DNA from: Pogonophryne albipinna
Lineage: Eukaryota > Chordata > Actinopteri > Perciformes > Artedidraconidae
Direction: 5' to 3'
DNA: 64,000 nt
Assembly: GCA_028583405.1 (NCBI GenBank)
Contig: JAPTMU010000120.1
Coordinates: forward strand, 186,001 to 250,000
The position numbers and the translations under genes are program-made. How positions within the stretch are numbered: position 1 is the first letter of the stretch; each line of letters opens with the position of its first letter. The notes under the pieces are model-generated. The model searched no databases, was not told the origin of the DNA, and saw only the letters and a list, made by a program, of their open reading frames with translations. Below, one piece after another: positions 9,992 through 57,828 of the stretch.

Positions 9992-11036
9992 AGGTTGCGG
10001 TCGAATAGTCCAAAAATCAGCTCCTATCGTCTATTCCTTGACCTCTGAGTGAAACGTCACGGGGTTAAGGGATAGTGGATAGGAGAATTCAAAAGGACTT
10101 AGGAGAAGAGACTGCGGTACTTTAGAGAATCCGACTGCACTTTCACTATCCGACGTGTTTATGATGCGCCAGCGGACGTCATAAATGTGCGTCTGCTGCT
10201 GTGGGGAAACTATGGAAACTACAGTTTCCTATACAGCGGACTACAACATGGATGTTTAATAAGAACGAGGGACTACTGTAAACTCATCTAGAGACTCTGC
10301 ACCGTGCTCTGATGCTGTTGCTTTATGCTTTATGAACGTGGACAACAGAGAAACATATTCTTCATGACCAAAGTTGGAATTGAAATAAAAAAGGAAAGTG
10401 AAACTTATGCTCGTCACCCTCTCCCTCCGGTCCACATTAATACAAATGATCCCAATACGTATGATTGTATGAACTATGAAAAGATCTTAAACTCAATACA
10501 AATGTATTTATTATAAACGTTAGTCTTTAACATCTATCACTGTGTATATCACCATTCAAACATCTTTTAAAAGTTGAACAAACTCCACACAGCTCAGTGA
10601 AATGTTGACTTTATTTGATCATTTCAGTAAAAACTAACGTTCATATTTCTCTTTTTGATTATAATACTGATGAACGTTCAAAACAAAGCACTTTGGCAAC
10701 TTACCACATACGTTTTAAAAAGCTTAATAAGCACCGTAACTTTCATGATATAATTTCTCCGTCATAATCGATTGTTTCCGTGAACGGCCGACTGTTGAGT
10801 GACGGCAAATGCTGCGGCTGCAAGGCATTGTGGGGCAGCATTTTCTCCTCTCGTTTCGGTTAGGGAGGTCCAGTGGTTCCTAAGCTAAAGGAGGTTATAA
10901 AGGAAGTATGAAACCTCCTTTCCTATCATCTAGAGAATTCGAACTGCACTTATCATGGCTGCCACTGAGGGACTTCCGGGTCATTTCACTCCGTTAGGAA
11001 GGTTCCTAAGCTAAATGGACTATTCGACCGCAACCT
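9992..11036. mobile_element. TIR DNA transposon, non-autonomous
   Basis: Left end AGGTTGCGGTCGAATAGTCC pairs exactly with right end GGACTATTCGACCGCAACCT. Sub-terminal blocks are shared: 'tagagaatccgactgcactt' near 10123 and 'tagagaattcgaactgcact' near 10930. No transposase frame; a 63-codon frame inside (10325-10516) is unrecognised. A clear TSD is not visible, so the superfamily is left open. Confidence 0.75.
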
Positions 11037-11039
11037 CAG

Positions 11040-11547
11040 TGTTCAGAAACCTTCTGTAGCTTGCGAGCTAACAGCTAACTCTATCAGTCAAAAAGTAAAT
11101 CTTCTTTCTATCTTCTCTGCACTTGACTGTGTACTTTCCCTGCTTTGTTGCCAGGATTGTTCATTTTATCATATTCATATTTCTGATGTAATAAGCTTAC
11201 CAGAGCCAACAAAACATCTGAAAGCAAAAGTGTTTAATGGCTATGAACAACAACACTGAAAGAACAGCTAGAGTAAAACTGTCAGTAATAAATAGGGGAA
11301 GGACACAATAAAAGTTAAATTAGGGAGATAATGAGGCACGTTTTAAGACATTTTCAATAGTTGTGAAAAGAATAAAAAAGAGAAAATGAGAAACAAATTA
11401 AATCCCTGCTTACCTGATGCAGAATGGAGCATAGGAGTTACTTAGTTTGATAGTTAACGTGGCAATGAGTTCACACAGTTCATTACAAAAACGACTTTGT
11501 ACCGTGGACTTATGTCTCATAGCCTTCTATAATCAAACCCCTTTTTG
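11040..11547. other. Stretch without recognised feature
   Basis: AT-rich, no gene or repeat end recognised before the TAG array. Confidence 0.5.
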
Positions 11548-11570
11548 TTGTAGTAGTAGTAGTAGTAGGT

Positions 11571-11607
<37 letters not shown>

Positions 11608-11609
11608 GT

Positions 11610-11694
<85 letters not shown>

Positions 11695-11755
11695 GTGTAG
11701 TAGTAGTAGTGTGGTGGTTGTGGTGGTAGTAGTAGTAGTAGTGTAGTAGTGGTAC

Positions 11756-11792
<37 letters not shown>

Positions 11793-11794
11793 GT

Positions 11795-11859
<65 letters not shown>

Positions 11860-11906
11860 TGGTGGTTGTGGTGGTAGTAGTAGTAGTAGTGTAGTAGTAG
11901 TGGTAC

Positions 11907-11961
<55 letters not shown>

Positions 11962-11975
11962 GGTGGTGGTGGTGT

Positions 11976-12014
<39 letters not shown>

Positions 12015-12035
12015 GTGTAGTAGTAGTAGTGGTAC

Positions 12036-12075
<40 letters not shown>

Positions 12076-12121
12076 GGTGGTGGTGGTGTTGGTGGTAGTA
12101 GTAGTAGGTGTAGTAGTAGTG

Positions 12122-12157
<36 letters not shown>

Positions 12158-12240
12158 TAGTAGTGGTACTAGTAGTAGTAGTAGTAGTAGGTGTAGTAGT
12201 AGTAGTAGTAGTAGTAGAAGTAGTAGTAGTAGTAGTAGGT

Positions 12241-12307
<67 letters not shown>

Positions 12308-12359
12308 GTGTAGTAGTAGTAGTGTGGTGGTAGTAGTAGTAGTAGTGTAGTAGTGGTAC

Positions 12360-12396
<37 letters not shown>

Positions 12397-12404
12397 GGTG
12401 GTGT

Positions 12405-12457
<53 letters not shown>

Positions 12458-12504
12458 TGGTGGTTGTGGTGGTAGTAGTAGTAGTAGTGTAGTAGTAGTG
12501 GTAC

Positions 12505-12548
<44 letters not shown>

Positions 12549-12600
12549 TTGGTGGTAGTAGTAGTAGTAGTAGTAGTAGGTGTAGTAGTAGTAGTGGTAC

Positions 12601-12640
<40 letters not shown>

Positions 12641-12686
12641 GGTGGTGGTGGTGTTGGTGGTAGTAGTAGTAGGTGTAGTAGTAGTG

Positions 12687-12725
<39 letters not shown>

Positions 12726-12737
12726 TAGTAGTGGTAC

Positions 12738-12780
<43 letters not shown>

Positions 12781-12853
12781 GGTGGTGGTGGTGGTGTTGG
12801 TGGTAGTAGTAGTGGTAGTAGTAGTAGTGGTAGTAGTAGTAGTAGTAGTTGTG

Positions 12854-12928
<75 letters not shown>

Positions 12929-12976
12929 ATAGTGGTAGGTGTAGTAGTAGTGCTAGTAGTAGTAGTGGTGGTGGTG

Positions 12977-13008
<32 letters not shown>

Positions 13009-13033
13009 GGTAGTAGTATAAGTAGTAGTTGTG

Positions 13034-13064
<31 letters not shown>

Positions 13065-13066
13065 GT

Positions 13067-13134
<68 letters not shown>

Positions 13135-13138
13135 TGTG

Positions 13139-13178
<40 letters not shown>

Positions 13179-13198
13179 TAGTAGAAGTAGTAGTTGTG

Positions 13199-13241
<43 letters not shown>

Positions 13242-13271
13242 TAGTAGAAGTAGTAGTTGTGGTAGTAGTAT

Positions 13272-13347
<76 letters not shown>

Positions 13348-13387
13348 TGTGGTAGTAGTAGTAGTAGTGGTAGTAGTAGAAGTAGTA
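11548..13387. repeat. About 1.8-kb TAG/TGG compound microsatellite with higher-order structure
   Basis: About 1,840 bases of almost uninterrupted TAG triplets, broken by TGG runs and marker words such as GGTGTAG, GTGGTGGTTGTGGTGG and GTGGTACTAG. The marker sequence recurs in the same order at 11859-12175 and 12456-12740, showing block duplications of about 600 bp. Because the unit is 3 bp and both strands lack stops in some frames, it yields long meaningless frames (poly-Val, poly-Ser, and a 408-codon poly-Thr/Leu/Tyr frame on the minus strand). Confidence 0.95.
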
Positions 13388-15935: not shown

Positions 15936-17047
15936 TGTATCAAACCTCTTTGGTGGTCATGATCTTTTCTTCTAATTTTTACTGGAGTATTTTTTTCTCC
16001 TGCTGGTTAAATGCATTGAATTTGCTTTAGGAAAATGCAACTTAATGTATGTGTTTATTAGCATTTAGTGGTGGTCTGTGAAGTGTTCTTCCTCTGGTGA
16101 TCTGGACGCATTTATCACTGCAAAGTAACACACAGGTTGAATATTAAGGATACAGAAGTCCTCTTTAGTGGCGATACTTGTCCAAATATGAGAGCCAATC
16201 ATCATGAGCAACATGCCAACATTTGATTTAATTTAATAATATTATTTATTATATTTAACCTAATCCAATTTACATCAAGAACGTTGTGTATTGTAGAAGC
16301 ACAATTTTAAGGAAGGAAAGGTAGAAAGTGATGAAAATAAGAAATGTTGCAACTTAAACTGCATTTTATCCTTGTATTTGTTCTTATTGCCCGTTGATAT
16401 TATCACATTTGATTTGATTTTGGGAAATATATATATATTTTATTTTATTGACACAATTAACATTGCTCTTAAAGTGGTTTTGCTGCTAATGTCTCATGTC
16501 AAAGTATTTTGGTTTTAAAAAACATGCATATTTGGCATAAAGCGACAATAGATGTTGTCATTCTGACTGAAGGAGAGGAGATTCAGTTATCTGATTTAAA
16601 GGCAAATGAAAGCATGTATGATTAAGTTTCTTCTCTTAGACGGCGTTATTGAAAGTCATTCTGGGAAGTGAGTCCACCCACGCGTTATCATAATAAAGAT
16701 AACAGTTAGAATATCAAAAAGGAATTTAAAAGGGAAACCTCTTACGGTCCAAACTAACCCTCCTGTCTCCAGAGAGCACAGCCCTTTTCCTGCTGCTCAT
16801 TTATCTCCACTCTGACAGGAAGTGTGTGTGTGTTTGTTTGTGTGTGTGTGTGTGTGTGTGTTGGATTCATCAGCTATGACCAAAGTCAAAGTTGGGGACA
16901 TCAGACTCCAATCAGCCCTGAGGGTCCCAAGCAGAAAGGGAGGAGACCTCTGACAGAGATGTATTTATTAGTTATCTTGCAGCATAATACAAAATGAGCC
17001 TAAAGTATTCCTGCTGTTACTTCATTTTTTTGTGAAAGTGCAAGTTA
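15936..17047. other. Stretch without gene
   Basis: No gene recognised. It includes a short (TG)n with TTTG interruptions at about 16822-16861. Confidence 0.5.
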
Positions 17048-17300
17048 AGGGGTCCTATTCTGCTCATTTTTAGGTGTATATGTATGTAGTGTCTCTACTG
17101 GGACATGTCTCCATGCTTTAATGTCATAAAGCTCTTTATTTTTCTCATACTGCCTGTGCTGCAGCACCTCTTTTCACCCTCTGTCTGAAACCAGAGCCCA
17201 GTCTGCTCTGATTGGTTAGCTGGCCGGCTTTGTTGTTGTGGTGATGTCACTAGGTTCAGGAAAGCTTTTGCAGACCATTTTAAATGCATTAAAAACCTAT
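17048..17300 (-). mobile_element. Copy of a dispersed fish repeat (pair of 52930-53335)
   Basis: Read on the minus strand, this stretch matches 52960-53330 over about 240 bp with few changes (shared 'accaatcagagcagactgg', 'gaaaagaggtgctgcagcac', 'gcatggagacatgtcccagt'). This copy has a single 'agtagagacactacatac' unit where the other has four tandem 57-bp units. Probably a non-autonomous DNA element; the class is uncertain. Confidence 0.75.
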
Positions 17301-17480
17301 GACACTACACTGACACTACAGGAAATGGAAAACCACAAGAAGTATCATAGGGAATTACATTTGGGACATGTTTTGATTTTGAATAGAAATTACATTGTTT
17401 TCCGTGTAAAGCAAACAAGATTGTTCAAGATGCATTTAAACACAGGGACATTTCCCAGATGAATAGATTCATGTTGTAAT

Positions 17481-18417
17481 CAACCCGCTATCACGGCAAG
17501 ACGTGAACATGTGACGATCTACCATGCTGGGAGATGTGAAGATGTCACGATTTCGTCCCTTCAAACGGGACAGTTACACGGTATTGTTAACATGGCCCAA
17601 CCAGTGGAGATATACCCGGAAATGCCAAGCAAATGCTACCCCGACGGTCGGTTGTTATTGTCAATATTAATATAATAATGATTTATTTTTTAATAGTCAC
17701 ACTCGATTACGCTGATTTTCTTGTTGCCCCAGCTGGTCGACACCTCTTTAAGCAGAAATAAAGGCTACATTAATGTATTAAATCGATCATTAATCCATGT
17801 GTGTGGATGTGGAATTAACGGATGTGACGTTGTGCGATTGCGTTGCCAGGCAACAGCTTCGGTTCATGTTAATTTACAAACTCTAACCGTAGTTATATTT
17901 AAAAACATGTTAGAAGGCCTCACGAAATACTTTAATATACATTATCCGTCATTAACAATACCGAAAACAGACGTAGGCAAGATCCTCAGCTTGGTGATTC
18001 AATGGTTTAGCCGCAATGCACGTTGGGAAATGGTGTTTATGCGATGTGAAATCCGAATAAAAAAAATAATAAAAAATAATACTTTATTCCGAGTGTTCTT
18101 GCTTTTCTCTTTGAAAGTCATCACATAACGGCATTGTAATACACGATTCGGCTGCATTAAATATTACACATCTGCCGTAGTTCTCTATTTATAAAGCCAT
18201 GATGAGAAGACTTCAAGACAAACAGGAAGAACTGCCACCAAAACGTGACGTGGATCATAAATATATCAGCAATTAAACAACATCTTACATTTATTTTCAC
18301 ACAATACGTCTCCTTGCAGTATCAACACTAATTCGGCTGACTTTTATATTTGATCCAATTGATAGATAGGCTGTATTTACACCATAAAGGTGCACAGCTG
18401 ATAGAAAGGGACACCTA
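17481..18417 (+). repeat. Left inverted arm of the foldback element
   Basis: About 937 bp, inverse to 21511-23337 after removing the insertion in that arm. The shared inner boundary is 'gggacaccta'. It differs from the right arm by a roughly 10-bp extra 'gctgatagaa' near 18397 and a roughly 35-bp gap relative to the right arm near 17935. The 135-codon frame at 17721-18128 is unrecognised and not preserved as such in the other arm. Confidence 0.9.
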
Positions 18418-18460
18418 GTGGTTAAAGCACGTTATTGAATTGTATTATTATTATTATTAA

Positions 18461-18667
18461 CTAACAGAATAAGAGACCTGACAGGGTCAGACGTTAGCCT
18501 GGCTGCACAGTCACAGAGGCTGGCTGTGTCAACTGTTCACACTTCACACTTGTAGAAATAAAAAAATGTTATATGACAGATTATCCTGTTAAACAGCAGT
18601 ATAATAAGTGTTGACTCGTGCAGAGAGAGACTCACTTCCAGCTGCCAGCAGCAGAGCTACAGAGAAC

Positions 18668-18669
<2 letters not shown>
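18461..18669 (-). pseudogene. Immunoglobulin heavy-chain V gene fragment (leader exon and truncated V exon)
   Basis: On the minus strand, ATG at 18669-18667 opens a leader exon reading MFSVALLLAAG, ending in a donor GTGAGT at 18635-18630. This matches the hydrophobic VH signal peptide typical of teleosts. About 85 bases on, the V exon (about 18548-18461) reads EQLTQPASVTVQPG, the start of framework 1 in a common fish VH family. It is broken: a TAA where Gln is expected, then a deletion of about 5 bp removing the conserved framework-1 cysteine and shifting the frame. The sequence stops at the beginning of CDR1 ('SYSV') where an ATT microsatellite begins; the acceptor region also looks damaged. 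No framework 2/3, J or RSS is present. Upstream are a TATA box and an octamer. Family recognition is from memory of teleost VH sequences; family number is not assigned. Confidence 0.87.

Positions 18670-18724
<55 letters not shown>
18669..18724. repeat. (ATG/ATC)n microsatellite in the VH 5' UTR
   Basis: About 55 bases of perfect trinucleotide repeat, reading (ATC)n on the minus strand and abutting the leader ATG. Short ATC runs at this place are usual in teleost VH leaders; this one seems expanded. Confidence 0.9.
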
Positions 18725-18725
<1 letters not shown>

Positions 18726-18780
18726 GAAGATGTGAGCTCCTGATCCCCTTTAATCTCCACTGACAGTCTCATGTGAAAGC

Positions 18781-18819
18781 CTTATAACTGTATCACAATG
18801 GAGATTACTGAGTTTGCAT
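18781..18819 (-). promoter_or_regulatory. IGHV-type promoter: octamer plus TATA box
   Basis: On the minus strand, ATGCAAAC (18819-18812) differs at one position from the immunoglobulin octamer ATGCAAAT. About 23 bases downstream is GTTATAAG (18788-18781), a TATA-like box, and the leader ATG follows after about 110 bases of 5' UTR. Octamer-TATA-leader is the standard layout of vertebrate IGHV promoters. This one lies in the loop of the foldback element. Confidence 0.75.
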
Positions 18820-19154
18820 AGAACCAAACACGTTGCATAAGAATATGAGTCGGACTGAAGATAGAAAATGGAGCTTGTTATTGTTACTATTACAAGAATA
18901 CAATCACCTCAGTGTTTAAAGAGTCTAGAATCAACTTTGTATACTTTATTTTTGCAAAAACAGATAATTAACATCTGGAGCTCTTTTAATGTCCTTTTTG
19001 ATTATTGTTACACCAGGTCTTGTCAAAACCTTTATTCTATATTCAATATCCATTACTAAACAAAACAGCACACCTGAAATGTATATTTAAATACTTTATT
19101 AAGGGCAGTGAATTAATTTTTTCTGTATGTTTTTCAAATCAGTGTTATAAGTGT

Positions 19155-21450
19155 CATAGACATTACATTACATTACATTACATTGCATTCAGCTGACGCT
19201 TTTATCCAAAGCGACTTACAATAAGTACATTCGACCAGGAAGACACAACCTTGAAGAAAACAGAATCATATAAGTACATCAGGTTTCATAGAGCCAAACA
19301 TTTCAAGTGCTACTCAACTGGCTATAGATAAGCCAGTCCTTTATTAGTATATAAGTGCTCTGTTAGCAGTTCTTTGTTAGTAATTCTATCGCTCGAGGTG
19401 GAGTCGAAAGAGATGAGTTTTCAGTCTGCGCCGGAAGATGTGCAGGCTTTCTGCTGTCCTGATGTCAATGGGGAGCTCATTCCACCATTTTGGAGCCAGG
19501 ATAGCAAACCCACGTGTTTTTGCTGATGGGAACTTGGGTCCCCCTCGCAGCGAGGGTGCAGCGAGTCGTTTGGCTGATGCAGAGCGTAGTGCACGCGCTG
19601 GGGTGTACAGTTTAACCATGTCCTGGATGTAGGAAGGGCCAGATCCATTCGCAGCATGGTACGCAAGTACCATTGTCTTGAAGTGGATTCTAGCAGTTAC
19701 CGGAAGCCAGTGAAGGGAGCGGAGGAGCGGAGTGGTGTGGGAACATTTTGGAAGGTTGAAGACCAGACGAGCCGCTGCATTCTGGATGAGCTGCAGAGGT
19801 CGGATGGCACATGCAGGTAGACCAGCCAGGAGGGAGTTGCAGTAGTCTAGGCGTGAGGTGACGAGAGCCTGGACCAGAACCTGCGTGGCTTTCTGGGTCA
19901 GCTGGGGACGTATCCTCCTGATGTTGCAAAGCGTGTATCTGCAGCAACGGGTTGTAGCAGCTATGTTTGCAGTGAAGGACAGGTTGTTATCTAGGATCAC
20001 ACCCAGATTCCTTGCAGTCTGAGTCGGGGAAACAACAGAGATGCCGATGTTGATTGTCAGGTCAAGAGTGGGACAATCTTTTCCCGGAAGGAAAAGCAGT
20101 TCAGTCTTGTCAAGGTTGAGCTTGAGGTGATGAGCAGACATCCACTGAGAGATGTCAGCTAGACAAGCAGACATGCGTGCGACGACCTGGGTCTCTGAGC
20201 GGGGAAAGGACAGAATTAATTGGGTGTCGTCAGCGTAGCAGTGGTATGAAAAACCATGCGGGCTAATGACCGATCCGAGCGAGTTTGTGTACAGGGAGAA
20301 GAGGAGGGGACCAAGAACAGAGCCCTGAGGGACCCCTGTAGTTAATTGACAAGGGTCGGACTCGGACCCTCTCCAAGTTACCCTGTAGCTACGGTCTTTG
20401 AGGTATGAGGTGAGGAGGGAAAGTGCAGAGCCTGAAACTCCAAGTTCTTGGAGAGTGCGAAGGAGGATCTGATGGTTCACCGTGTTGAATGCAGCAGACA
20501 GGTCCAACAGGATGATGACAGAGGAGAGGGATGCTGCTTTGGCAGTGTGCAGTTCCTCAGTGACAGCAATGAGAGCAGTTTCTGTGGAGTGACCTGCCTT
20601 GAAACCAGACTGGTGCGGATCCAGAAGGTTGTTCTGATGGAGATAACAGGAGAGTTGTTTAAAGACAGCGCGTTCAAGTGTTTTAGACAGGAACGGGAGT
20701 AGAGAGACAGGCCTGTAGTTTATAACATCAGACGGGTTGAGAGTGGGTTTCTTTAGGAGAGGGTTTACTCTTGCCTCCTTAAGACTATTTGGAAAGTGAC
20801 CAGAAGTTAGAGAAGTGTTGATGAAATGGGTGAGGAACGGTAGAATATCAGGAGTGATAGTCTGAAGGAGGTTTGAAGGGATAGGGTCCAGAGGACAGGT
20901 GGTAGGGCGGGCAGAGGTAATGAGGGTAAGAACCTCACTTGGAGAGAGAGGGGAAAAGGAGGTCAGTGTGTGGGTGAAAGGAGGGTCTGGTGACCCAGCG
21001 GTGAGTAAATGTGAGTCAGAAAAAGAAGAGCGAATATCATCAACCTTTTTTTCAAAATGGTTAACAAAGTCGCTTGACAGAAGTGAGGAGGGGGGAGGGG
21101 CTTTGGGAGGGTCCAAGAGGGTGGAGAAGATGGAAAATAGTTTTTTGGGATTGGAATAGGAAGATTGGATCTTATCTTGAAAGAAAGTGCTTTTTGCCTG
21201 AGAGATCGAAGCAGAGAAAGAGGAGAGGAGAGCCTGATAGGTTAGGAGGTCGTCATGGTGTTTGGATTTCCACCGTTTCCGCTCTGCTGCCCGAAGGACG
21301 GTTCTATTAGCACGCAGTGCGTCATTTAGCCAGGGAGCAGGAGGGGACTGACGAGCCTGCCGAGATGTGAGAGGACAGAGAGAGTCCAGAGAGAGTCCAG
21401 AGAGGATGAGAGAGTAGAGAGGAGAGTTTCTGCAGCAGAGTTTGGAGACA
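19155..21450 (-). mobile_element. 5'-truncated L2/Maui-like LINE
   Basis: The 3' end, at low coordinates, is a TGTAA-type simple repeat (minus strand) after a tail containing GTAAGTCGCTTTGGATAAAA. Inward lie the C-terminal region and reverse transcriptase. The element stops near 21450 before any endonuclease domain, as common after incomplete reverse transcription. It lies in the loop of the foldback element, so it inserted after or within that unit. A related shorter copy lies at 54045-55272. Confidence 0.88.
19386..21359 (-). CDS. LINE reverse transcriptase, 5'-truncated but open frame
   Basis: Open for 657 codons on the minus strand with no stop; the true start is missing because the element is 5'-truncated. 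Order: a linker with 'APWLNDALR' and 'AAERKRWK', then reverse transcriptase with motif A 'LDLSAAFNTVNH', '[14 protein letters not shown]', and the catalytic box YADD followed by TQL, then '[14 protein letters not shown]' and a conserved C-terminal segment ending '[16 protein letters not shown]'. This order fits CR1/L2-clade elements. The enzyme would prime reverse transcription from nicked target DNA, but the endonuclease is absent, so this copy cannot act alone. Where many relatives have FDTVDH, this has FNTVNH, a possible weakening of motif A. Confidence 0.88.
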   Translation of the reverse strand, partial: QARQSPPAPWLNDALRANRTVLRAAERKRWKSKHHDDLLTYQALLSSFSASISQAKSTFFQDKIQSSYSNPKKLFSIFSTLLDPPKAPPPSSLLSSDFVNHFEKKVDDIRSSFSDSHLLTAGSPDPPFTHTLTSFSPLSPSEVLTLITSARPTTCPLDPIPSNLLQTITPDILPFLTHFINTSLTSGHFPNSLKEARVNPLLKKPTLNPSDVINYRPVSLLPFLSKTLERAVFKQLSCYLHQNNLLDPHQSGFKAGHSTETALIAVTEELHTAKAASLSSVIILLDLSAAFNTVNHQILLRTLQELGVSGSALSLLTSYLKDRSYRVTWRGSESDPCQLTTGVPQGSVLGPLLFSLYTNSLGSVISPHGFSYHCYADDTQLILSFPRSETQVVARMSACLADISQWMSAHHLKLNLDKTELLFLPGKDCPTLDLTINIGISVVSPTQTARNLGVILDNNLSFTANIAATTRCCRYTLCNIRRIRPQLTQKATQVLVQALVTSRLDYCNSLLAGLPACAIRPLQLIQNAAARLVFNLPKCSHTTPLLRSLHWLPVTARIHFKTMVLAYHAANGSGPSYIQDMVKLYTPARALRSASAKRLAAPSLRGGPKFPSAKTRGFAILAPKWWNELPIDIRTAESLHIFRRRLKTHLFRLHLER

Positions 21451-21510
21451 GTGTTACATTGCTATTATTATCCTTAAAATATATGTAAAACAAAACCACT
21501 TATGATCTTT

Positions 21511-23337
21511 TAGGTGTCCCTTTGTGCACCGTTATGGTGTAAATACAGCCTATCTACCAATTGGATCAAATGTGACCTGCTCCATCGAAATCAGTCACAT
21601 TGACCCGAAGACACATTTTGAGTTGTATACACTGTTGGAAAGAGGATATTCCTAGCTTTCTAATGATATCAGGATTGTTTTTGTACTCCAAATATTAAGC
21701 GAAATATGTCACATTATATAATGACTGTCACCGAGTCATCATTTTGAGAAAAAGGCCTTCAAAGTTTTCTCTTCTCTGGTATCCATCAATCTGATTGATT
21801 ATTAGCGGAGCAAATGACCAAAATACTACGGAGGGAAGATATTTTCGTTTGGAGGGGAAGCTCGCGAGTGTGTGTGTGTGTTTGTGTAATTTTGCGTTTG
21901 TGAGTATTGTGTTTGTTTCCCGGGGAAAACACTCACGAGAAACACCGGCTGTTGTTATGCCTGCAGTGACGTTAAGTTACTCCGTTCTCCGCTTGTAATT
22001 ATGCCGAAGCTTCAAAGTTGTATTTATCCTCTGAATTTGCCGAAACAAGTTTGATATTCTGAAAGCCAAGACTTTGTTTAATTGAAATCAGATGAAAACA
22101 AACTGTAACGGACCCTGCCGTGTTATCTATGATTACTATACTCTTACATTCATAATGTCAGCCGGAGGGAGGGGGGCGGCGCTGCGGAAGAGCAGATTGC
22201 GAGTGAGAGGTGCCTGTCTTCGTCCCTTTACAAGCTTCAAAAATGTATTTATCGTGTGATTTTGGAAATAAAAGTTTCATATTCTGAAAGCCAAGACTTT
22301 GTTTGTTTAAAATCAAACAAAACACCCGAACCCCGAAAAAATAGTTTTTTACGTAAATCCACGTTTATTTTGAAATGAGCCGTTGCGACTTCCGACTGAT
22401 TTCGATAGAGCGGGTCACAAATATAAAAGTCAGCCGAATTAGTGTTGATACTGCAAGGAGACGTATTGTGTGAAAATAAATGTAAGATGTTGTTTAATTG
22501 CTGATATATTTATGATCCACGTCACGTTTTCAGTTTTGGCGGCAGGTCCTCCTGTTTGTCTAGAAGTCTTCTCATCAGGGCTCTATAAATACAGAACTAC
22601 GGCAGATATGTAACATTTAATGCAGCCGAACCGTGTATTACAATACCGTTATGTGATGACTTTCAAAGAGAAAAGCAAGCACAATCGGAATAAAGTATTA
22701 TTAAAAAATGTTTTTGGGTATTTCACATCGCATAAACACCATTTCCCAACGTGCATTGCGGCTAAACCATCCAATCACCGAGCTGAGGATCTTGCTTATG
22801 TCTGTTTCCGGTATTGTTAATGACGGATGTATTTTGTTATACACACATTCCTTCACATTTCAATTTTAATTTACATTAAAGTATTTTGTGGGGCCTTTTA
22901 AAATGTTTTTAAATATAACTATGGTTGTAGTTGAAGAGTTTGGAAATTAACATGAACCGAAGCTGTTGCCTGGCAACTCAATCGCACAACGTCACGTCCG
23001 TTAATTCCACATCCACACGCATGGATTAACATCGATTTAATACATTAATGTAGCCTTTGTTTCTGCTTAAAGAGGTGTCGACCAGCTGGGGCAACAACAA
23101 CATCAGCGTAATCGAGTGTGACTATTAAAAAATAAATCATTATTATATTAATATTGACAATAACAACCGACCGTCGGGGTAGCATTTGCTTGGCATTTCC
23201 GGGTATATCTCCACTGGTTGGGCCATGTTAACAATACCGTGTAACTGTCACGTTTGAAGGGACGAAATCGTGACATCTTCACGTCTCCCAGCATGGTACA
23301 TCGTCACATGTTCACGTCTTGCCGTGATACTGGGTTG
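21511..23337 (-). repeat. Right inverted arm of the foldback element, interrupted
   Basis: Inverse copy of 17481-18417, split by an 847-bp element at 21572-22418. The uninterrupted left arm gives the empty site: '...ggatcaaatataaaag...' read on this strand. Confidence 0.9.
21572..22418. mobile_element. 847-bp TIR element with 4-bp TSD inside the right arm
   Basis: Ends GTGACCTGCTCCATCGAAAT and its inverse ATTTCGATAGAGCGGGTCAC (about 25 bp paired). The flanks AAAT (21568-21571 and 22419-22422) occur once at the empty site in the left arm, giving a 4-bp TSD. Inside, a block of about 85 bp is repeated directly near 22005-22090 and 22228-22310 (shared 'attctgaaagccaagacttt'). No coding capacity. 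Superfamily not determined. Confidence 0.85.
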
Positions 23338-23345
23338 GTTGTAAT

Positions 23346-37033: not shown

Positions 37034-39600
37034 TGTTTTGTTGTTGTTTTTTTTCTTTCCGTTAACTGTCAAGTAGGAACTAACACATTTTTGTAGTAAG
37101 TTTTTGTGTTTCTCTTATTTTCCTACGATACTGTTATGAAGGACAGACCATCTATTTCTATTTGTTTTTAATTTCTTTTAGAAAGGGGCAGGTAATAAAA
37201 GATTATTTTCTTCTCCCGCTCCTTTTCGGCTACGGTGTGTTTATAGAGACATGTTTTGTAAACAGTTGTTATCCATCAAGTTGTGCATACCATGAACGAA
37301 AAGAAAAAAAATGAAATGAGTAAAGAATTAGTAGATATACAAATATAATTTTCCCACGGTGCTGCAGATGCGCAGTAACTTGATACAATAACAGAAAAGC
37401 ATACCTTTCTGCTGCCCATGGGGAGTACTAGTATTTTTTGTGAGTCTTCCTGCATTTATAAAAGCAGGAATATACTTTAGTAAAATAAGAAGAGTCCCCA
37501 TTTACCAGGTAGTACAAACTGCACACAAACTCACATATTAGCAGAACAAGGAGTCATTTCTTATGAGCTTATCTCAATTTAGCCACACGCTACCAAGAAT
37601 GTCAGTGCTTATGCATAACAGCGAGACATGAGGCATGGATTCCACATTCACACGATGGAGAATGAGAAACAGCAAGAGCGAAGAAAAGCATCCCGATAAT
37701 GAGCGAAGGTCCTTAAAGAAGCCCATTAGCCCTAATAAGCTGCAGTTTCTACCAACCCTGGGGAGAAGCTGCAGGTGCTCACACCAGCACACACACATTT
37801 CTGAACTACTCTCATCCATTTGTATTGAACACACACACTCTCTCACACACACATTTGTGCCTCTAGGAGACGGTAGTTTGGTCCCTGGGGTCCATGGGGA
37901 CAGTTATTGATCAGGGAACGATGGTTGCAGTTTGATCTCTCAGCCAGGAGCACTCATTACTCCACTGCTGCTCTTATTCAAGCTAATGCAAGCAGAGGAA
38001 GTGAGGAGGAGGAGGAGGAGGAGGAGGAGGAGGAGGAGGACTAGGACTAATTTGCAGCCACATGCATCACATCTCAGTCAGCCCATCTCAGAGCTACTCC
38101 TCTGGGAATCAATGCACATATTTTAGACCACTTTGGTTCCTCTTTCCTGCATCTTATTGACAGCTTATTACACAGCTTAGTTGAATACTCGATTCTGATT
38201 GGTCAATTCGGACTTTTCAGAGGTTGTTAATACTCGATAACACACCGCTGCTAAGTAGGATCAAGGGAGAGAAGGAAAGATGTTAAAAGACGTCAGAGAA
38301 ATCCACAGAAAAGACAGACAGGAAGTTAATATTAATGCTCGGGCATTGTTTAAGGACATGTTAGTGGAAAAGAAACTGTGAACAGACTTTGACAGTTACT
38401 TGGAGTGATCAATGTTTTCGGGTGTTCTTTTTTTCAATAATGACTGCCTCGCTTAACGTTATCCCTTAGATCCACTTAGGTTTTTGTTTTTAACCACAGA
38501 CCTTATTTCTGGCTAGCAACCAAAAACAAATGCAGAAAACCATTGACCGCAGGAAGTGCTCAAATACTGACACATTTCAGGGTTTAAAGACAAGCTGTTG
38601 ACCAATCGGAGTCAAGTCTTCAACTAGTTCATGTAATAAAGAAGCACATTATAACTTATTCCACTACAGTAGTTTCAAGCTCTGTTCTGAGTTTCTCTTT
38701 TTAACAAAAAATACATCTGTTCCCTTTAGTTCAGTTTGAAGCTACTGTCATTTCACAAACCAACCAGATGTCTTCCCATTTAAATCCATCGGAAACAAGG
38801 ATTTCCTTTTTAGGTTCATTGACAGTATTTGAACACAACGGCAAACTAAATGCAAGTGATTGAGATCTGTCTTTCTGTTTGAATAAAGAACTTTGTTTTG
38901 TTCGGCTTATTTGTGTGCTCCAGTAGATAAGATCCTTCCATATGTAAGACGTCTTGAATCGGTTTAATTTGAGTTTTGTTTAATCCTTTTATTTCCCTTG
39001 AGTCTTGAATTTCTGCATTTAAATGGGGCCTTTGTTGTTTCTGTTATCTTTGTTTTAAAGCTTGAAATGTATGTAAATTGAGTATTTTGAATCCTCATGT
39101 TCAACAATACGACTGATGCTTGATTGTTTACAGAATCGCGGACAGATTGAAGATGACACTCTCGGATGAATGTGGTAATCATGTAGAAAACATGTGATTT
39201 CCTAAGTGTTTCAATAGCAAAGATAATGGGCTGTAAAACCATCGCTGCGAGTCTTTGAGCCAGAACTTTGGGAAATGTGTTTCAATCTAACGTACATTAT
39301 GCAATCATTTCCTTCAATCTGAGCAATTGGCTGATTTCCTTTTATTGAAACTAATCATAACCGTGGTTCCTCTGCAGTTGTACTTTCCGTCTCGCTGTTT
39401 TCTGCCCCATCCTAGAGTGACATTTGGGCGTCTGCTTAATAGCTTTCCAGGCGTCAATAGTACATACTAAACAGCCGTTGAATTGACACTTGATGATTGC
39501 TATCATTTAATGATCTTGCTCTGCCCTTTAGCTCACAGAATAGATTTCTTCAAGACGGTTGCAGCAGAAAAAAAACCCATTTCACAACAAAAAATAGTAC
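37034..39600. other. Stretch without recognised gene
   Basis: No exon could be confirmed. A (GGA)n microsatellite lies at 38003-38041. Some high-complexity, repeat-free parts (e.g. 37640-37790, 39360-39545) could be conserved non-coding sequence; that is only an impression. A fragment near 38500-38580 weakly resembles the right part of the MITE at 28807-29431. Confidence 0.4.
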
Positions 39601-46299: not shown

Positions 46300-48078
46300 A
46301 CAGAGGGGACACATGTTGATGTAGAAGAGACATGAAGAAGAGGGGACACATGTTGATGTAGAAGAGACATGAAGAAGAGGGGACACATGTTGATGTAGAA
46401 GAGACATGAATAAGAGGGGACACATGTTGATGTAGAAGAGACATGAAGAAGAGGGGACACATGTTGATGTAGAAGAGACATGAAGAAGAGCAGTGGCGTT
46501 TTCTCCTGGAGGCCAAGGGAAGCCAGGCTTCCCCTGTTTTTTCGGATTGTAGTTATCATTTTAATAAATAAATAAAAACACTTCGTTTAGTTTCGGAAAT
46601 TCTTTGCTGTGTGTTGCTGCCGGCCCGTCTCTCCCCCATTCTCATTGAGTATTTTAAAAAGAGTGAAACAGCGCCCCTCCAGATGTTATGGTGAAACAGT
46701 AGATTGCACTCTCTGTTGCGAGAGGAGGCCAGCCGAAATTGGCTTCCCTTGGTGAAAAAAAATGGAGGGATTGACCAATCAGACATGACATCACGTCATG
46801 CCCCTGCCAACCTGTGATTAGTCAGGGCCATGCCAAGGGAAGCCAGAGGCGGCTTGCCTCACAATCCAATCAAATCGCATCAACTTAGTGTTGCAGTAAC
46901 GCGTCCTAAAACCCGGAAGGAAACTGCGCTCGGATTCTCTCGACAAAAAAGCAATGGGATTTCTCCATAGGATTTGGGAAAATAGCTCGAAATAAGGTCA
47001 GTGGAAAACAAACTTGTTAGATAAATGCAAGTTGTGTTCAGTCGGATAATATCCACATGTCTACCCTACTTTTATAATTTTCGAATCATAAATCTAATCG
47101 ATAGAAGATAGATAGTGTCACTGCACCACTCTCACCGCCGTTAGAAAGTAGCAAGCAACTGAAGCAAGTGCAATTATGGAGGGGAGTGTTTCATCAAAAA
47201 TAATTGTACTAAACTTCCGCTACAGCAGCAACTAAAATACAATCTGATGACAGGCCGATGCCCAAACTGGAGCTGTGTACAGCGAGGAAAAAAGGAGCAA
47301 ATCGAACGTAAAACGTTAAAGGACTCCTGATTTAGTTTGTGAATGAATGCTTATTAGAGTTTGGGCTGGAGAGTGCGTGCGAACCTGTCGGTTAGATAAC
47401 AGGCGTGTGTAAGTCCTGCATCTGTATACAAGTGTGTAAAATGATACCGGGTAACTCATCTGGTTACGTTATTACATTGACCACCACACCCCCGACCCAA
47501 AAGAAAGGAGGTATTATTGGCACCCCCTAATTTTTTCCCCACGCCACGCTACTGAAGAAGAGGGGACACATGTTGATGTAGAAGAGACATGAAGAAGAGG
47601 GGACACATGTTGATGTAGAAGAGACATGAAGAAGAGGGGACACATGTTGATGTAGAAGAGACATGGAGAAGAGGGGACACATGTTGATGTAGAAGAGACA
47701 TGAAGAAGAGGGGACACATGTTGATGTGGAAGAGACATGAAGAAGAGGGGACACATGTTGATGTAGAAGAGACATGAAGAAGTGGGGACACATGTTGATG
47801 TAGAAGAGACATGAAGAAGAGGGGACACATGTTGATGTGGAAGAGACATGAAGAAGAGGGGACACATGTTGATGTAGAAGAGACATGAAGAAGAGGGGAC
47901 ACATGTTGATGTAGAAGAGACATGAAGAAGAGGGGACACATGTTGATGTAGAAGAGACATGAAGAAGAGGGGACACATGTTGATGTGGAAGAGACATGAA
48001 GAAGAGGGGACACATGTTGATGTGGAAGAGACATGAAGAAGAGGGGACACATGTTGATGTGGAAGAGACATGAAGAAG
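46300..48078. repeat. 37-bp tandem array, open in three frames, split by a hAT
   Basis: The unit begins 'gaagaggggacacatgttga' and is 37 bp; about 5 copies lie left of the hAT (46300-46490) and 14 right of it (47555-48078). As 37 is not a multiple of 3 and the unit has no stop on the minus strand, all three minus frames stay open (up to 187 codons) and encode the same 37-residue periodic peptide in rotated phase. There is no promoter or homology, so these are not real genes. Confidence 0.95.
46491..47554. mobile_element. hAT-like element inside the 37-bp array
   Basis: Starts CAGTGGCGTTTTCTCCTGGA and ends CCCCACGCCACGCTACTG. Flanks aagaagag (46483-46490 and 47555-47562) form an 8-bp repeat, although the array makes this less decisive. 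Between about 46885 and 47130 there is a copy of the AGTGGTGCAGGAATG MITE family (left AGTGTTGCAGTAA, right TCACTGCACCACT). Confidence 0.75.
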
Positions 48079-51689: not shown

Positions 51690-52752
51690 TAGGGGTGTAA
51701 CGGTTCACAAACATTTCGGTTCGGTACGTACCTCGGTTTTTAGGTCACGGTTCGGTTCGGTACGTTTTCGGTACAGCAGAAAAAATTATCACAAAACATA
51801 TATTTTTTTCCTTATTGTTAAACTGTGAATAATGTATTCACTCAAATAAATACAAAATATAATAAAATAAACATTAAGGTGCAGCATTTCGATGAACTGA
51901 AATAATCTGTATTTGAACTTTACTGTACTAGTACTCACAAAACATAAACTATTAGTTTTGGGGTTTTAATTATTATTAAACTATGAATATTCACTCAAAT
52001 AAATATAAAATATAATAAAATAAACATTAAGGTGCAGCTTTTCGATGAACTGAAATAATCTGTATTAGAACTGTACTAGTACCTAAGCAGCCAGTTTGAC
52101 ATTATGACTTGCTTGTCATTGTATTTTCATGTTGTTTTAAAGAAAGATGAACTTGTCCACATTGCTTGCCGAAAGGGCAGATCTGCTGGCACTAACAATG
52201 TCTCCTGCTGTGGAGAACACCCTCTCGCTAAGGACAGAGGTAGCAGATACAGCCAGGTAGCGCTTTGCTAACATGGCAACATAAGGATATTTGGCGTTTG
52301 TAATAGCTTTGGCTCGGTCTGAACTTGTTGCGAGTGGTGGAGGCTTAAATGCTAGCGGGAGTTGGGTTTGCACTTCAGTCTTTTGGTACCGGTGATATTC
52401 ACGTTCGGGTGATGCCTTTTCAAATGAGTGTGCAAGTTTGATGTATTGCCAGCCGCGTAACCAATTTTAGTTGAACAATGCCGACAAACAGCTTTGGTTC
52501 GGTCCACCTGTCTTTGTCCGTCATCCTTGTACGTAACTGCGAAACCAAAATGTTCATTGAACACAATGGGAGCAAATTACTCTGAATGCTGCGACGCAGC
52601 ACCTGAGATTACTTCCAAGAAGTTGTTCACGTTCTCAATTTTTTACGTTTAACGTTATATTCGTTCGGTTACACTTCGGTACACACGTGTACCGAACCGA
52701 AGGGCCCGTACCGAATAATTTCGGTACGGGTACGTGTACCGTTACACCCCTA
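51690..52752 (-). mobile_element. hAT deletion derivative with TAGGGGTGTAACGG termini
   Basis: Starts TAGGGGTGTAACGGTTCAC and ends GTACCGTTACACCCCTA, with perfect 8-bp TSD gtagctca (51682-51689 and 52753-52760). Sub-terminal 'cggttcggtacg' and 'cggtacgggtacg' repeats are probable transposase-binding sites. The minus strand retains both ends of a transposase gene (52137-52564) with its middle deleted. Confidence 0.92.
52137..52564 (-). pseudogene. hAT transposase remnant: BED finger joined to the dimerisation domain
   Basis: The first part (52564-52352) has a BED finger: 'AVCRHCSTKIGYAAGNTSNL' followed by 'HTHLKRHHP', i.e. Cys-x2-Cys and the His cluster. The second part (52373-52137), in another frame, runs 'QLPLAFKPPPLATSSDRAKA', then 'KYPYVAMLAKRYLAVSATSV' and 'LSERVFSTAGDIVSASRSAL', the signature of the hAT C-terminal dimerisation domain. 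The catalytic core (several hundred residues in intact ZBED-type transposases) is missing between 'DRAKAITNA' and 'KYPYV', and a frameshift lies after 'NITGTK'. It cannot transpose, but the DNA-binding and dimerisation modules lie side by side. Confidence 0.85.
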
Positions 52753-52779: not shown

Positions 52780-53335
52780 TTTCCTGTAGTGTGTTTATAT
52801 ACTGAAGGTTTGTGTGCATGTCAATGGTCTGCAAAGGCTAAATAGTGACATCACTCTGTTACACTCTGGCTTTTATTGGCTAGCGCTTCATTCAACACAT
52901 TGTACGTGATAGGCTAAGGGGCGGGATATCTTTAAGCGGTTGACCAATCACAACAGAGCTGGCCAGCTGACCAATCAGAGCAGACTGGACTCTGGTTTCA
53001 GACAGAGGGTGAAAAGAGGTGCTGCAGCACAGGCAGTATGAGAAAAATAAAGAGCTTTTTGAACATTAAAGCATGGAGACATGTCCCAGTAGAGACACTA
53101 CATACTGATATACACCTGAACATCAGCAGGAGAGGACTCTTTAAAGTAGAGACACTACATACTGATATACACCTGAACATCAGCAGGAGAGGACTCTTTA
53201 AAGTAGAGACACTACATACTGATATACACCTGAACATCAGCAGGAGAGGACTCTTTAAAGTAGAGACACTACATACTGATATACACCTGAAAATAAGGAA
53301 AATAGGGCTCCTTCAAATTAGGTTTGTTTGGAGTC
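52780..53335 (+). mobile_element. Dispersed fish repeat with a fourfold 57-bp internal amplification
   Basis: Same family as 17048-17300 (inverted), sharing 'accaatcagagcagactgg', 'tgctgcagcacaggcagtat' and 'aaaataaagagctttt'. From about 53089 to 53292 a 57-bp unit starting 'agtagagacactacatactg' is present four times, against one at the other locus. The 102-codon open frame over it arises because 57 is divisible by 3. The left boundary is uncertain. Confidence 0.78.
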
Positions 53336-53743: not shown

Positions 53744-54044
53744 CAGAGGTTGGAAGTAGTGGAGCACAAATACTTCGTGACTGTACTTAAGTACATTTTT
53801 CTGGTATCAGTACTTTACTGCACTACTTATTTTTCTGACGACTTTTTACTTTGACTTCTTACATGTTTAACACAAACACCTGTACTTTCTACTTCTTACA
53901 TTTTCCAAACAGGCTGGTTCATTTAGTTTGAATCTGTGTTTGGTGGCGTGATCATTATTATTTAGAGTCATTGCGTGCCTATTGATTAGAACACGATCCG
54001 TGTATCCATCATTTCCTGGTCTTCTCTAAAGAAGAGGGACCAAT

Positions 54045-55272
54045 TACATTACATTACATTGCATTTAGCTGACGCTTTTATCCAAAGCGACTTACAATAA
54101 GTGCGTTCGACCAACAAGATACAAACTTGAAGAAAACAGAATCATATAAGTACATCAGGTTTCATAGAGCCAAACATTTCAAGTGCTACTCAACTGGCTT
54201 TAGATAAGCCAGTCCTTTATTAGTATATAAGTGCTTTGTTAATAGTTCTATTGCTCGAAGTGGAGTCGAAAGAGATGAGTTTTCAGTCTGCGCCGGAAGG
54301 TGTGTAAGCTTTCTGCTGTCCTGATGTCAATGGGGAGCTCATTCCACCATTTTGGAGCCGGATAGCAAACCCACGTGTTTTTGCTGATGGGAACTTGGGT
54401 CCCCTTGGCAGCGAGGGTGCAGCGAGCTGTTTGGTTGATGCAGAGCGTAGTGCACGTGCTGGGGTGTACGGTTTAACCATGTCCTGGATGTAGGAAGGGC
54501 CAGATCCATTCGCAGCATGGTACACAAGTACCAGTGTCTTGAAGTGGATTCTAGCAGTTACCGGAAGCCAGTGGAGGGAGCGGAGGAGCGGCGTGGTGTG
54601 GGAACATTTAGGAAGGTTGAAGACCAGACGAGCCGCTGCATTCTGGATGAGCTGCAGAGGTCGGATGGCACATGCAGGTAGACCAGCCAGGAGGGAGTTG
54701 CAGTAGTCTAGGCGTGAGATGACGAGAGCCTGGACCAGAACCTGCGTCGCTTTCTGGGTCAGCTGGGGATGTATCCTCCTGATGTTGTAAAGCGTGTATC
54801 TGCAGCAGCGGGTTGTAGCAGCTATGTTTGCAGTGAAGGACAGGTTGTTATCTAGGATCACACCCAGATTCCTTGCAGTCTGAGTCGGGGAAACAACAGA
54901 GCTGCCGATGTTTATTGTTAGGTCAAGAGTGGGACAATCTTTTCCCGGAAGGAAAAGCAGTTCAGTCTTGTCAAGGTTGAGCTTGAGGTGATGAGCAGAC
55001 ATCCACAGAGAGATGTCAGCTAGACAAGCAGAGATGCGTGCGACGACCTGGGTCTCTGAGCGGGGAAAGGACAGAATTAATTGGGTGTCGTCAGCGTAGC
55101 AGTGGTATGAAAAACCATGCAGGCTAATGACAGATCCGAGCGAGTTTGTGTACAGGGAGAAGAGGAGGGGACCAAGAACAGAGCCCTGAGGGACCCCTGT
55201 AGTTAATTAACAAGGGTCGGACTCGGACCCTCTCTAAGTTACCCTGTAGGTGCGGTCTTTGAGGTATGAGGT
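54045..55272 (-). mobile_element. Second 5'-truncated L2-like LINE
   Basis: Minus-strand copy of the same LINE as 19155-21450, starting within the reverse transcriptase and ending with the same tail (54071-54095) and a TGTAA repeat. A 7-bp TSD gaccaat lies at 54038-54044 and 55273-55279. It inserted inside the hAT-like element. Confidence 0.92.
54283..55260 (-). pseudogene. Broken LINE reverse-transcriptase C-terminal part
   Basis: The longest open part (54283-55002, 239 codons) matches the C-terminal half of the frame at 19386-21359 ('[20 protein letters not shown]', '[20 protein letters not shown]'). Defects relative to that copy: a TAA in place of a Gln codon just before 'LTTGVPQGS' (about 55208), and a single-base deletion near 54360 that shifts the C terminus after 'TRGFAI'. 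Non-functional. Confidence 0.88.
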
Positions 55273-55563
55273 GACCAATGAAAACGTTGTCATGTTGCCG
55301 TTGTTCAGCATGGACACATTCATTAGCTAACAATGACATTATTGTTCTATTAATATAAAGGGAGGTCAGGTACTCTTTAAAACAGCTGCTAGTTATGGGT
55401 ACTTTTTACTGAAGTACATTGCGAAGCCCATACTTCCTTACTTTTACTTGAGTAAAGAAGTTTAGTCAGTACTTCTACTTTTACCAGAGTGTTTTTAAAC
55501 ACGAGTATCTGTACTTCTACTCGAGTAAAGGATGTGTGTGCTTTTGCCATCTCTGCTTATGAA

Positions 55564-57301: not shown

Positions 57302-57828
57302 AAGGTCACCTATTATGCAAAATCCACTTCTTCATGTCTCTTCTACATCAACATGTGTCCCCTCTTCTTCATGTCTCTTCTACATCAACATGTGTCCCCT
57401 CTTCTTCATGTCTCTTCTACATCAACATGTGTCCCCTCTTCTTCATGTCTCTTCTACATCAACATGTGTCCCCACTTCTTCATGTCTCTTCTACATCAAC
57501 ATGTGTCCCCTCTTCTTCATGTCTCTTCTACATCAACATGTGTCCCCTCTTCTTCATGTCTCTTCTACATCAACATGTGTCCCCTCTTCTTCATGTCTCC
57601 TCTACATCAACATGTGTCCCCTCTTCTTCATGTCTCTTCTACATCAACATGTGTCCCCTCTTCTTCATGTCTCTTCTACATCAACATGTGTCCCCTCTTC
57701 TTCATGTCTCCTCTACATCAACATGTGTCCCCTCTTCTTCATGTCTCTTCTACATCAACATGTGTCCCCTCTTCTTCATGTCTCTTCTACATCAACATGT
57801 GTCCCCTCTGTGGAAAGAGACTCTGGAG
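57302..57828 (-). mobile_element. Inverted copy of the 37-bp-array end of the AAAGGTCCCC element
   Basis: Begins AAGGTCACCTATTATGCAAA after TA (57300-57301), the inverse of the right end at 48103, then about 13 copies of the 37-bp unit in inverse orientation (57330-57808), then 'ctctgtggaaagagactctg', the inverse of 46284-46303. Homology then stops. All three plus-strand frames are open (up to 230 codons) for the same reason as at 47555-48078. Confidence 0.87.

Follow-up and report, generated by a model that had tools for sequence, protein, structure and literature searches.

A foldback-like DNA transposon has very probably captured the front end of an immunoglobulin heavy-chain variable gene (IGHV) on a single occasion, in the manner of a Pack-type element, and the loaded transposon has then spread, partly as the passenger of a larger repeat. 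As read from the genome assembly, the transposon has distributed this IGHV front end over roughly a dozen sites, none of them in the antibody gene clusters identified. One copy is contained in the 64-kb stretch of DNA that was analysed (the window), where a transposon with long inverted-repeat arms (17481-23337) has the VH piece in its loop.

The VH piece and its carrier in the window

On the minus strand of 18460-18820 there are, in this order, an octamer-like site, a TATA-like site, a leader exon with its donor, an intron and a V exon. The original prediction had placed the octamer, TATA, leader with donor and framework 1 (FR1) in this sequence between two transposon arms, and each of these could be located, the arms at 17481-18417 and 21511-23337. 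The features are as follows.

17473-17480, plus strand: left target-site duplication, GTTGTAAT, which occurs twice in all on the plus strand of the window, once per element end
17481-18417, plus strand: left arm (long terminal inverted repeat), with outer end CAACCCGCTATCACGGCAAG
18418-18459: arm-proximal spacer, with (TAA)n at the VH junction, common to other VH copies
18460-18548, minus strand: V exon of a truncated IGHV, from FR1 to the start of CDR1, identified by tblastn, protein search and alignment of the copies
18549-18635, minus strand: leader intron, with donor GTGAGT at 18630-18635 and a damaged acceptor (CAAG)
18636-18669, minus strand: leader exon, MFSVALLLAAG, including the ATG start
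18668-18725: ATG/CAT microsatellite of 19 units adjoining the start codon, so long in no other of the 13 aligned copies
18780-18787, minus strand: TATA-like site, TTATAAGG
18813-18819, minus strand: octamer-like site, ATGCAAA, 7 of 8 bases
18820-18901, minus strand: upstream part confined to VH-bearing copies, the likely upper limit of the captured segment
18902-19159: part of the transposon loop common to non-VH copies
19160-21451, minus strand: later LINE insertion, 5' truncated, with an RVT_1 domain (E 8.6e-38); ends approximate
21452-21510: remaining transposon loop
21511-23337, minus strand: right arm, split by the insert at 21572-22417
21572-22417: dispersed element of about 846 bp with its own terminal inverted repeats, inside the right arm
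23338-23345, plus strand: right target-site duplication, GTTGTAAT

When the 846-bp insert (which has copies at 94-95% identity in L019 and L030) is removed, the left and right arms are identical at 872 of 922 aligned positions. An exact 8-mer match like that flanking the arms arose by chance in 179 of 200,000 simulations in which both ends were free over 7 offsets. Exact 8-bp target-site duplications were present in five of the six two-ended elements examined, namely the window element and four elements that lack VH (TGTGTAGG, GTCTATGC, GCTATAAT and GATGATGC). The exception is L010, a VH copy that keeps both ends and in which 3 of the 8 bases agree; L010 and the window are the only VH-bearing copies with both ends. 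The element termini are mostly CAACCCGGTATCACGGCAAG or differ from it by 1-2 bases, the arms are about 0.94 kb long, and the non-VH loops measure about 0.5-0.9 kb in L028, L036 and L040 and less than 0.1 kb in L032. The arm search returned 4327 first-look candidates, of which the best 40 were scored, and the copy number of the arms is therefore likely to be large. For an open reading frame in the arm (17697-18128) there was no homologue at E<=0.01 among 30 candidates. Neither the arm pattern nor a degenerate FR1 pattern had a match in viral_contigs, and the arm pattern had none in genome_contigs.

The identity of the captured piece is clear from its V exon, which reads on the minus strand as KCEQLTQPASVTVQPG, a stop, RLTL and then, past a 5-bp deletion, CQVSYSVS. 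It is an incomplete exon that stops in CDR1 at 18460. A tblastn probe placed FR1 here with E 1.1e-8, the next best place in the window having a value of 0.78, and judged by sequence the FR1 match is more than chance. When the leader and FR1 were used in a protein search, 357 of 360 candidates had E<=0.01; the 120 matches listed are nearly all fish proteins, many of them named IGHV, and the best is an IGHV of Takifugu flavidus (1.4e-17). The window is vertebrate DNA, and the proteins related to the VH piece come from fish.

The VH piece in this window is a broken copy. It had been called a pseudogene on account of a nonsense codon and the loss of the FR1 Cys, and the first of these grounds holds, with a TAA at 18494-18496 on the minus strand. 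The Cys, however, is not lost: its codon, TGT, is kept at 18481-18483 and is followed by CQVSYSVS, but is out of frame because of the 5-bp deletion just upstream. The acceptor reads CAAG as against CAGG in 12 of 12 sister copies. In the window copy it is CAT before the ATG that has expanded, in place of the CTG run of the leader.

A constant-domain motif, YHCKVTH, at 16113 was attributed to chance, its frame containing many stops. Weak Pfam matches, PF25244 among them, fell below the cut-off, and scans of the window for tRNAs and, at the gathering threshold, with Rfam found nothing. A 1.8-kb trinucleotide array (GTA and variants) occupies 11550-13387, and a 37-bp minisatellite forms three arrays, at 46302-46490, 47553-48078 and 57327-57809, the third inverted. 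There is also an inverted repeat pair, 17045-17236 and 52950-53144, 92% identical, whose first member is just outside the transposon and whose second adjoins a 57-bp tandem array.

Dispersal of the captured segment

The host genome (1.07 Gb) was searched with the VH piece, giving 39 candidates, all 39 of which were scored, and 12 copies besides that in the window were retrieved. The 13 places, of which 11 span the whole query (that on C713 with a gap) and 2 are partial, are distributed over contigs C859, C2 (three), C12, C17 (two), C1, C19, C3, C299, C5 and C713. The original prediction had proposed a hunt for further foldback copies with the same fragment, and beside each of these 12 there is indeed an arm. 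In all 13 it stands next to the 3' end of VH, within 34-45 bp in 12 copies and at 154 bp in L010. After ...TATTCTGTTAGT the V exon breaks off identically in 12 of the 13, and TAA repeats and spacer follow; L019, the sole copy without a readable common junction, is damaged there. Since other copies of the element carry VH with the same 3' breakpoint, the suggestion of IGHV capture followed by spread is supported, and the opposite arrangement, in which arms never carry VH and breakpoints differ, is not what we observed. For the same reason, a junction common to all copies but the damaged one, the acquisition most likely happened once.

The limits of the captured segment may be approximated by comparison with elements that lack VH. 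VH was present at 3 of 30 arm loci (the window, C5 and C2:5.96 Mb), all among the 13 places already known, and its absence from arm loci was judged on the 30 listed, with 1.5 kb of flank each; L047 is the other arm of the window element. One type of non-VH loop carries the sequence of 18902-19159 plus 21452-21510, and the arm-proximal spacer at 18418-18459 also occurs in non-VH loops, as far as the AT-rich tract. Because the sequence from 18902 onward matches non-VH loops, the captured segment would extend over 18460-18901 at most. The 13 matches to the promoter and leader (18630-18901) fall at 11 places, each a VH copy (11 candidates, 11 scored), and the octamer-like ATGCAAA is found in 11 of the 13 copies, L019 and L020 being partial. 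It had also been suggested that the element might spread IGHV promoters or donor sequences. The promoter is carried along, whereas no evidence was found for a role in gene conversion as a donor.

The 11 longer copies are mutually 95.5-100% identical over 18735-18901 plus 18461-18629, gaps ignored. L019 and L020 reach only 67-76% because there the comparison falls mostly on unrelated DNA. The TAA stop is common to the window, L009 and L020, and the 5-bp deletion to the window and L009; L020 does not have the deletion, although its flank is that of L009. Only the window copy has the acceptor change and the long CAT run.

These relationships bear on the means by which the VH elements multiplied. 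Six of the 13 copies (L012-L017) have a common flank, belonging to a larger repeat that shares about 4-8 kb at 94-99%, and they therefore appear to represent one insertion carried by that repeat. A 1.2-kb part of it was found at 97-100% identity at >=8 places (best 40 of 4319 candidates), two of which, C7:18.58 Mb and C17:7.20 Mb, have no VH copy among the matches listed. Together with the left flank common to L009 and L020 and the lack of a matching target-site duplication in L010, this pattern might suggest that transposition of their own had no part in the multiplication of the VH elements, and that segmental duplication, or carriage by larger repeats, accounts for all of it. We consider that quite unlikely. 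An exact 8-bp duplication of its own and flanks unlike those of the others set the window copy apart, at least four different outer flanks can be distinguished (the window; L009/L020; L010; L012-L017), and L011, L018 and L019, in which the outer left end is missing, are at further places. The larger dispersed repeat (for example L014:252-8001) carries a truncated VH-foldback as a passenger on several chromosomes.

Germline relatives, coding potential and other origins

A germline IGHV query extending from the promoter to V, for which the best 40 of 45 candidates were scored and which covers the subgroup of that query, matched germline genes at >=26 places plus one divergent gene (69%), with clusters at C14 8.46-8.99 Mb, C20 18.84-18.87 Mb and C2 23.83 Mb. 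None of the 13 VH copies falls inside these clusters. The same query matches all 13 mobile copies, 12 of them over the V exon, at 90% in the window copy and at up to 99% in others. A short leader match is found in addition in five of the 12, and in L011 the match takes in leader, intron and V exon at 79%. Conversely, the VH-piece query matched germline DNA in its V-exon part only, save for one short leader match on C20. When the mobile copies are compared with five germline genes, mean identity is 95.6% for the V exon, 88% for the leader core, 51% for the intron and 57% for the promoter, and none of the germline genes matched has a promoter or intron closely similar to those of the mobile copies. 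With lenient scoring, L010 and a germline gene could be aligned from octamer to CDR1 at 73%, so that homology outside the V exon is likely but distant. The donor was probably a gene of another IGHV subgroup, one that is missing from or changed in the assembly or lies beyond the searches made. Conversion and selection among germline genes are candidate explanations for the high FR1 similarity. The FR1 of mobile copies matches germline L021, L022, L023 and L054 at up to 99%, and most of the matches begin at about the acceptor. An IGH origin of the loop itself (18902-19159 and 21452-21510) was rejected, as loops without VH contain this sequence too, and a single sharp border is common to the related pieces in L022 and L023. 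A repeat of >=223 bp from foldback loops is present in IGH clusters (L022:4118-4340 and L023:4995-5217), and in one case it precedes an IGHV leader by about 160 bp.

Splicing in silico showed that 7 of the 13 copies (L010-L016) keep the ATG, the donor, a CAG acceptor and an FR1 frame that is open to a stop at the junction; they also keep ATGCAAA and TTATAAGG. Their product would be a leader ending in AAGS, then VKCEQLTQPASVTVQPGQRLTI(T/S)CQVSYSVS and a stop. In L009 the frame ends at the TAA, in L017 it is shifted after the start, and in silico splicing of the window, L018, L019 and L020 gave no open product. One might take the seven copies for working mini-genes encoding a short secreted VH peptide, or for gene-conversion donors, a reading to which we attach little weight. 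Among seven mobile copies the V exon has a mean identity of 97.8%, the intron 97.5%, the promoter 97.4%, the leader core 91.1% and the sequence further upstream 89.4%. The V exon being no more conserved than the intron or promoter, there is no sign of selection on the peptide, and the CTG runs in the leader differ in length among copies. By CTG expansion the run of Leu in the leader ranges from 5 to 21 in L010-L016, and from 8 to 21 in L012-L016. That the intact copies would provide B-cell-responsive octamer promoters, scattered over several chromosomes, with a spliced secreted VH mini-peptide and perhaps exchange of FR1 with germline IGHV, is likewise unlikely.

Two further origins were considered for the VH piece. 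Fish IGH loci contain many pseudogenes and repeats, and an ordinary decayed IGHV pseudogene in such a locus, around which transposons had inserted, might be imagined. This is highly improbable, since VH lies inside the arms and not outside them and the same breakpoint is met at other places. The germline IGHV matches listed in our comparison with the host IGH genes are on C14, C20 and C2, with none on C859, the 589-kb contig to which the window belongs, where the only match is the VH piece itself; this gives no sign that the window is part of an IGH locus. No second V exon was found in the 64 kb, no recombination signal sequence (RSS) was found at the VH piece, and two weak RSS-like matches, at 37355 and 62430, are far away. 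Nor did a six-frame Pfam scan of 54 of the 64 kb detect an Ig domain, only transposon domains being above the cut-off; the scan spared the VH stretch, the main repeat arrays, 9,993-11,549 and the final 1.2 kb, and took in the LINE as its own ORF only. No neighbouring V, D, J or C segment is thus indicated, as no other V exon or Ig domain was found in the scanned window.

The LINE, which we take to be L2-like, immediately precedes VH and has the same orientation; LINE and VH together are bounded by an apparent duplication, ATTG(C)TATTATTAT, that is rare at random (3 to 15 of 5000; 12 of 20227 positions), while the flanks of the LINE by itself gave no clear duplication in that test (604-666 of 5000). 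An L2-like 3' transduction that put VH and LINE into the loop as one block can nevertheless be dismissed with near certainty, because in all seven other VH copies that cover the insertion site (L010 and L012-L017) the loop runs on there without the LINE, the window junctions fit insertion of the LINE alone, with the duplication read as AGACA, and the block duplication is a false positive in AT-rich DNA. The continuity of the loop in these seven copies also marks the LINE as a later arrival. A second copy of the window LINE, 95% identical and with a clean GACCAAT target duplication, is present at 54043-55274.

A capture model and its relation to known systems

These considerations lead us back to capture by the transposon. 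We propose that a non-autonomous foldback-like element, with termini close to CAACCCGGTATCACGGCAAG, took up in its loop about 440 bp of an IGHV gene, running from upstream DNA through octamer, TATA, leader exon and intron into the V exon up to CDR1, and that the point at which the V end met the loop fell within an AT-rich TTATTA/TAATAA tract. The acquisition may have occurred by template switching during gap repair after excision, a route that the AT-rich TTATTA tract at the junction would suit; equally open is the route proposed for Pack-CACTA, in which two neighbouring copies fuse. The loaded element, presumably mobilised by a transposase supplied from elsewhere, would then have moved to other chromosomes, and one lineage would have multiplied further inside the larger repeat. 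In the window the order of events would have been capture, insertion at GTTGTAAT and, later, arrival of the LINE and of the 846-bp element in the right arm. The stop and the 5-bp deletion would have been gained by the window copy or its recent ancestors, and the acceptor change, the LINE and the second insert by the window copy itself.

If any copy is transcribed in B cells, such elements would offer a route by which lineage-specific promoters are moved around a vertebrate genome. With a common junction, copies at dispersed places and a germline family of several genes to compare, the time of capture, the donor and the activity of the promoter are directly testable. Among the open-licence papers listed, none reports the capture of a fish immunoglobulin V gene by a transposon in its title or the start of its abstract, which is weak evidence of novelty, and the VH peptide strings had no match in literature text.

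Helitrons are not known to have terminal inverted repeats or target-site duplications. A fish gene captured and moved by a DNA transposon is known from the texim genes, which were mobilised by a Helitron in platyfish and other fish (PMC4021074). The present case differs from it in the gene concerned, in having inverted repeats and a target-site duplication, and in that the cargo is a truncated V gene rather than a gene. No transposase was linked to the arms here, in which respect they differ from hAT elements. The target-site duplications of hAT elements generally follow the pattern nTnnnnAn, which 4 of the 5 found here miss, only GTTGTAAT fitting it. A length of 8 bp does suit hAT, for which the available excerpt gives 8 bp as usual (PMC12730594). 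At 52128-52507, on the minus strand, the window contains an internally deleted hAT transposase remnant, with a BED finger and a dimerisation domain.

Galileo and Foldback of Drosophila, in the P superfamily, have very long terminal inverted repeats and a short middle (PMC2775673). The window element resembles them in its long arms and short loop and, as far as that partial description goes, Galileo is structurally the closest to it. The target-site duplication of Galileo is 7 bp long (PMC2775673) as against 8 bp here, no P transposase or THAP domain was seen here, and gene capture does not figure in those parts of the Galileo descriptions.

In plants, Pack-CACTA elements capture sequence by fusion of neighbouring elements, according to the available portions of two reports (PMC13317346, PMC8616336). 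The Pack-TYPE elements outlined there (Pack-MULE, Pack-CACTA) are non-autonomous, with terminal inverted repeats, and hold a host gene fragment that has been amplified between their ends. What we have described is similar: terminal inverted repeats with a target-site duplication, a host gene fragment in 13 copies, 12 of them with the same junction, and sister elements free of cargo. The host, however, is a vertebrate, the cargo is an antigen-receptor front end together with its promoter, and the arms are of foldback length. Pack-type capture, which those portions describe in plants, would thus be met here in a fish, with the regulated front end of an antigen-receptor gene as its cargo.
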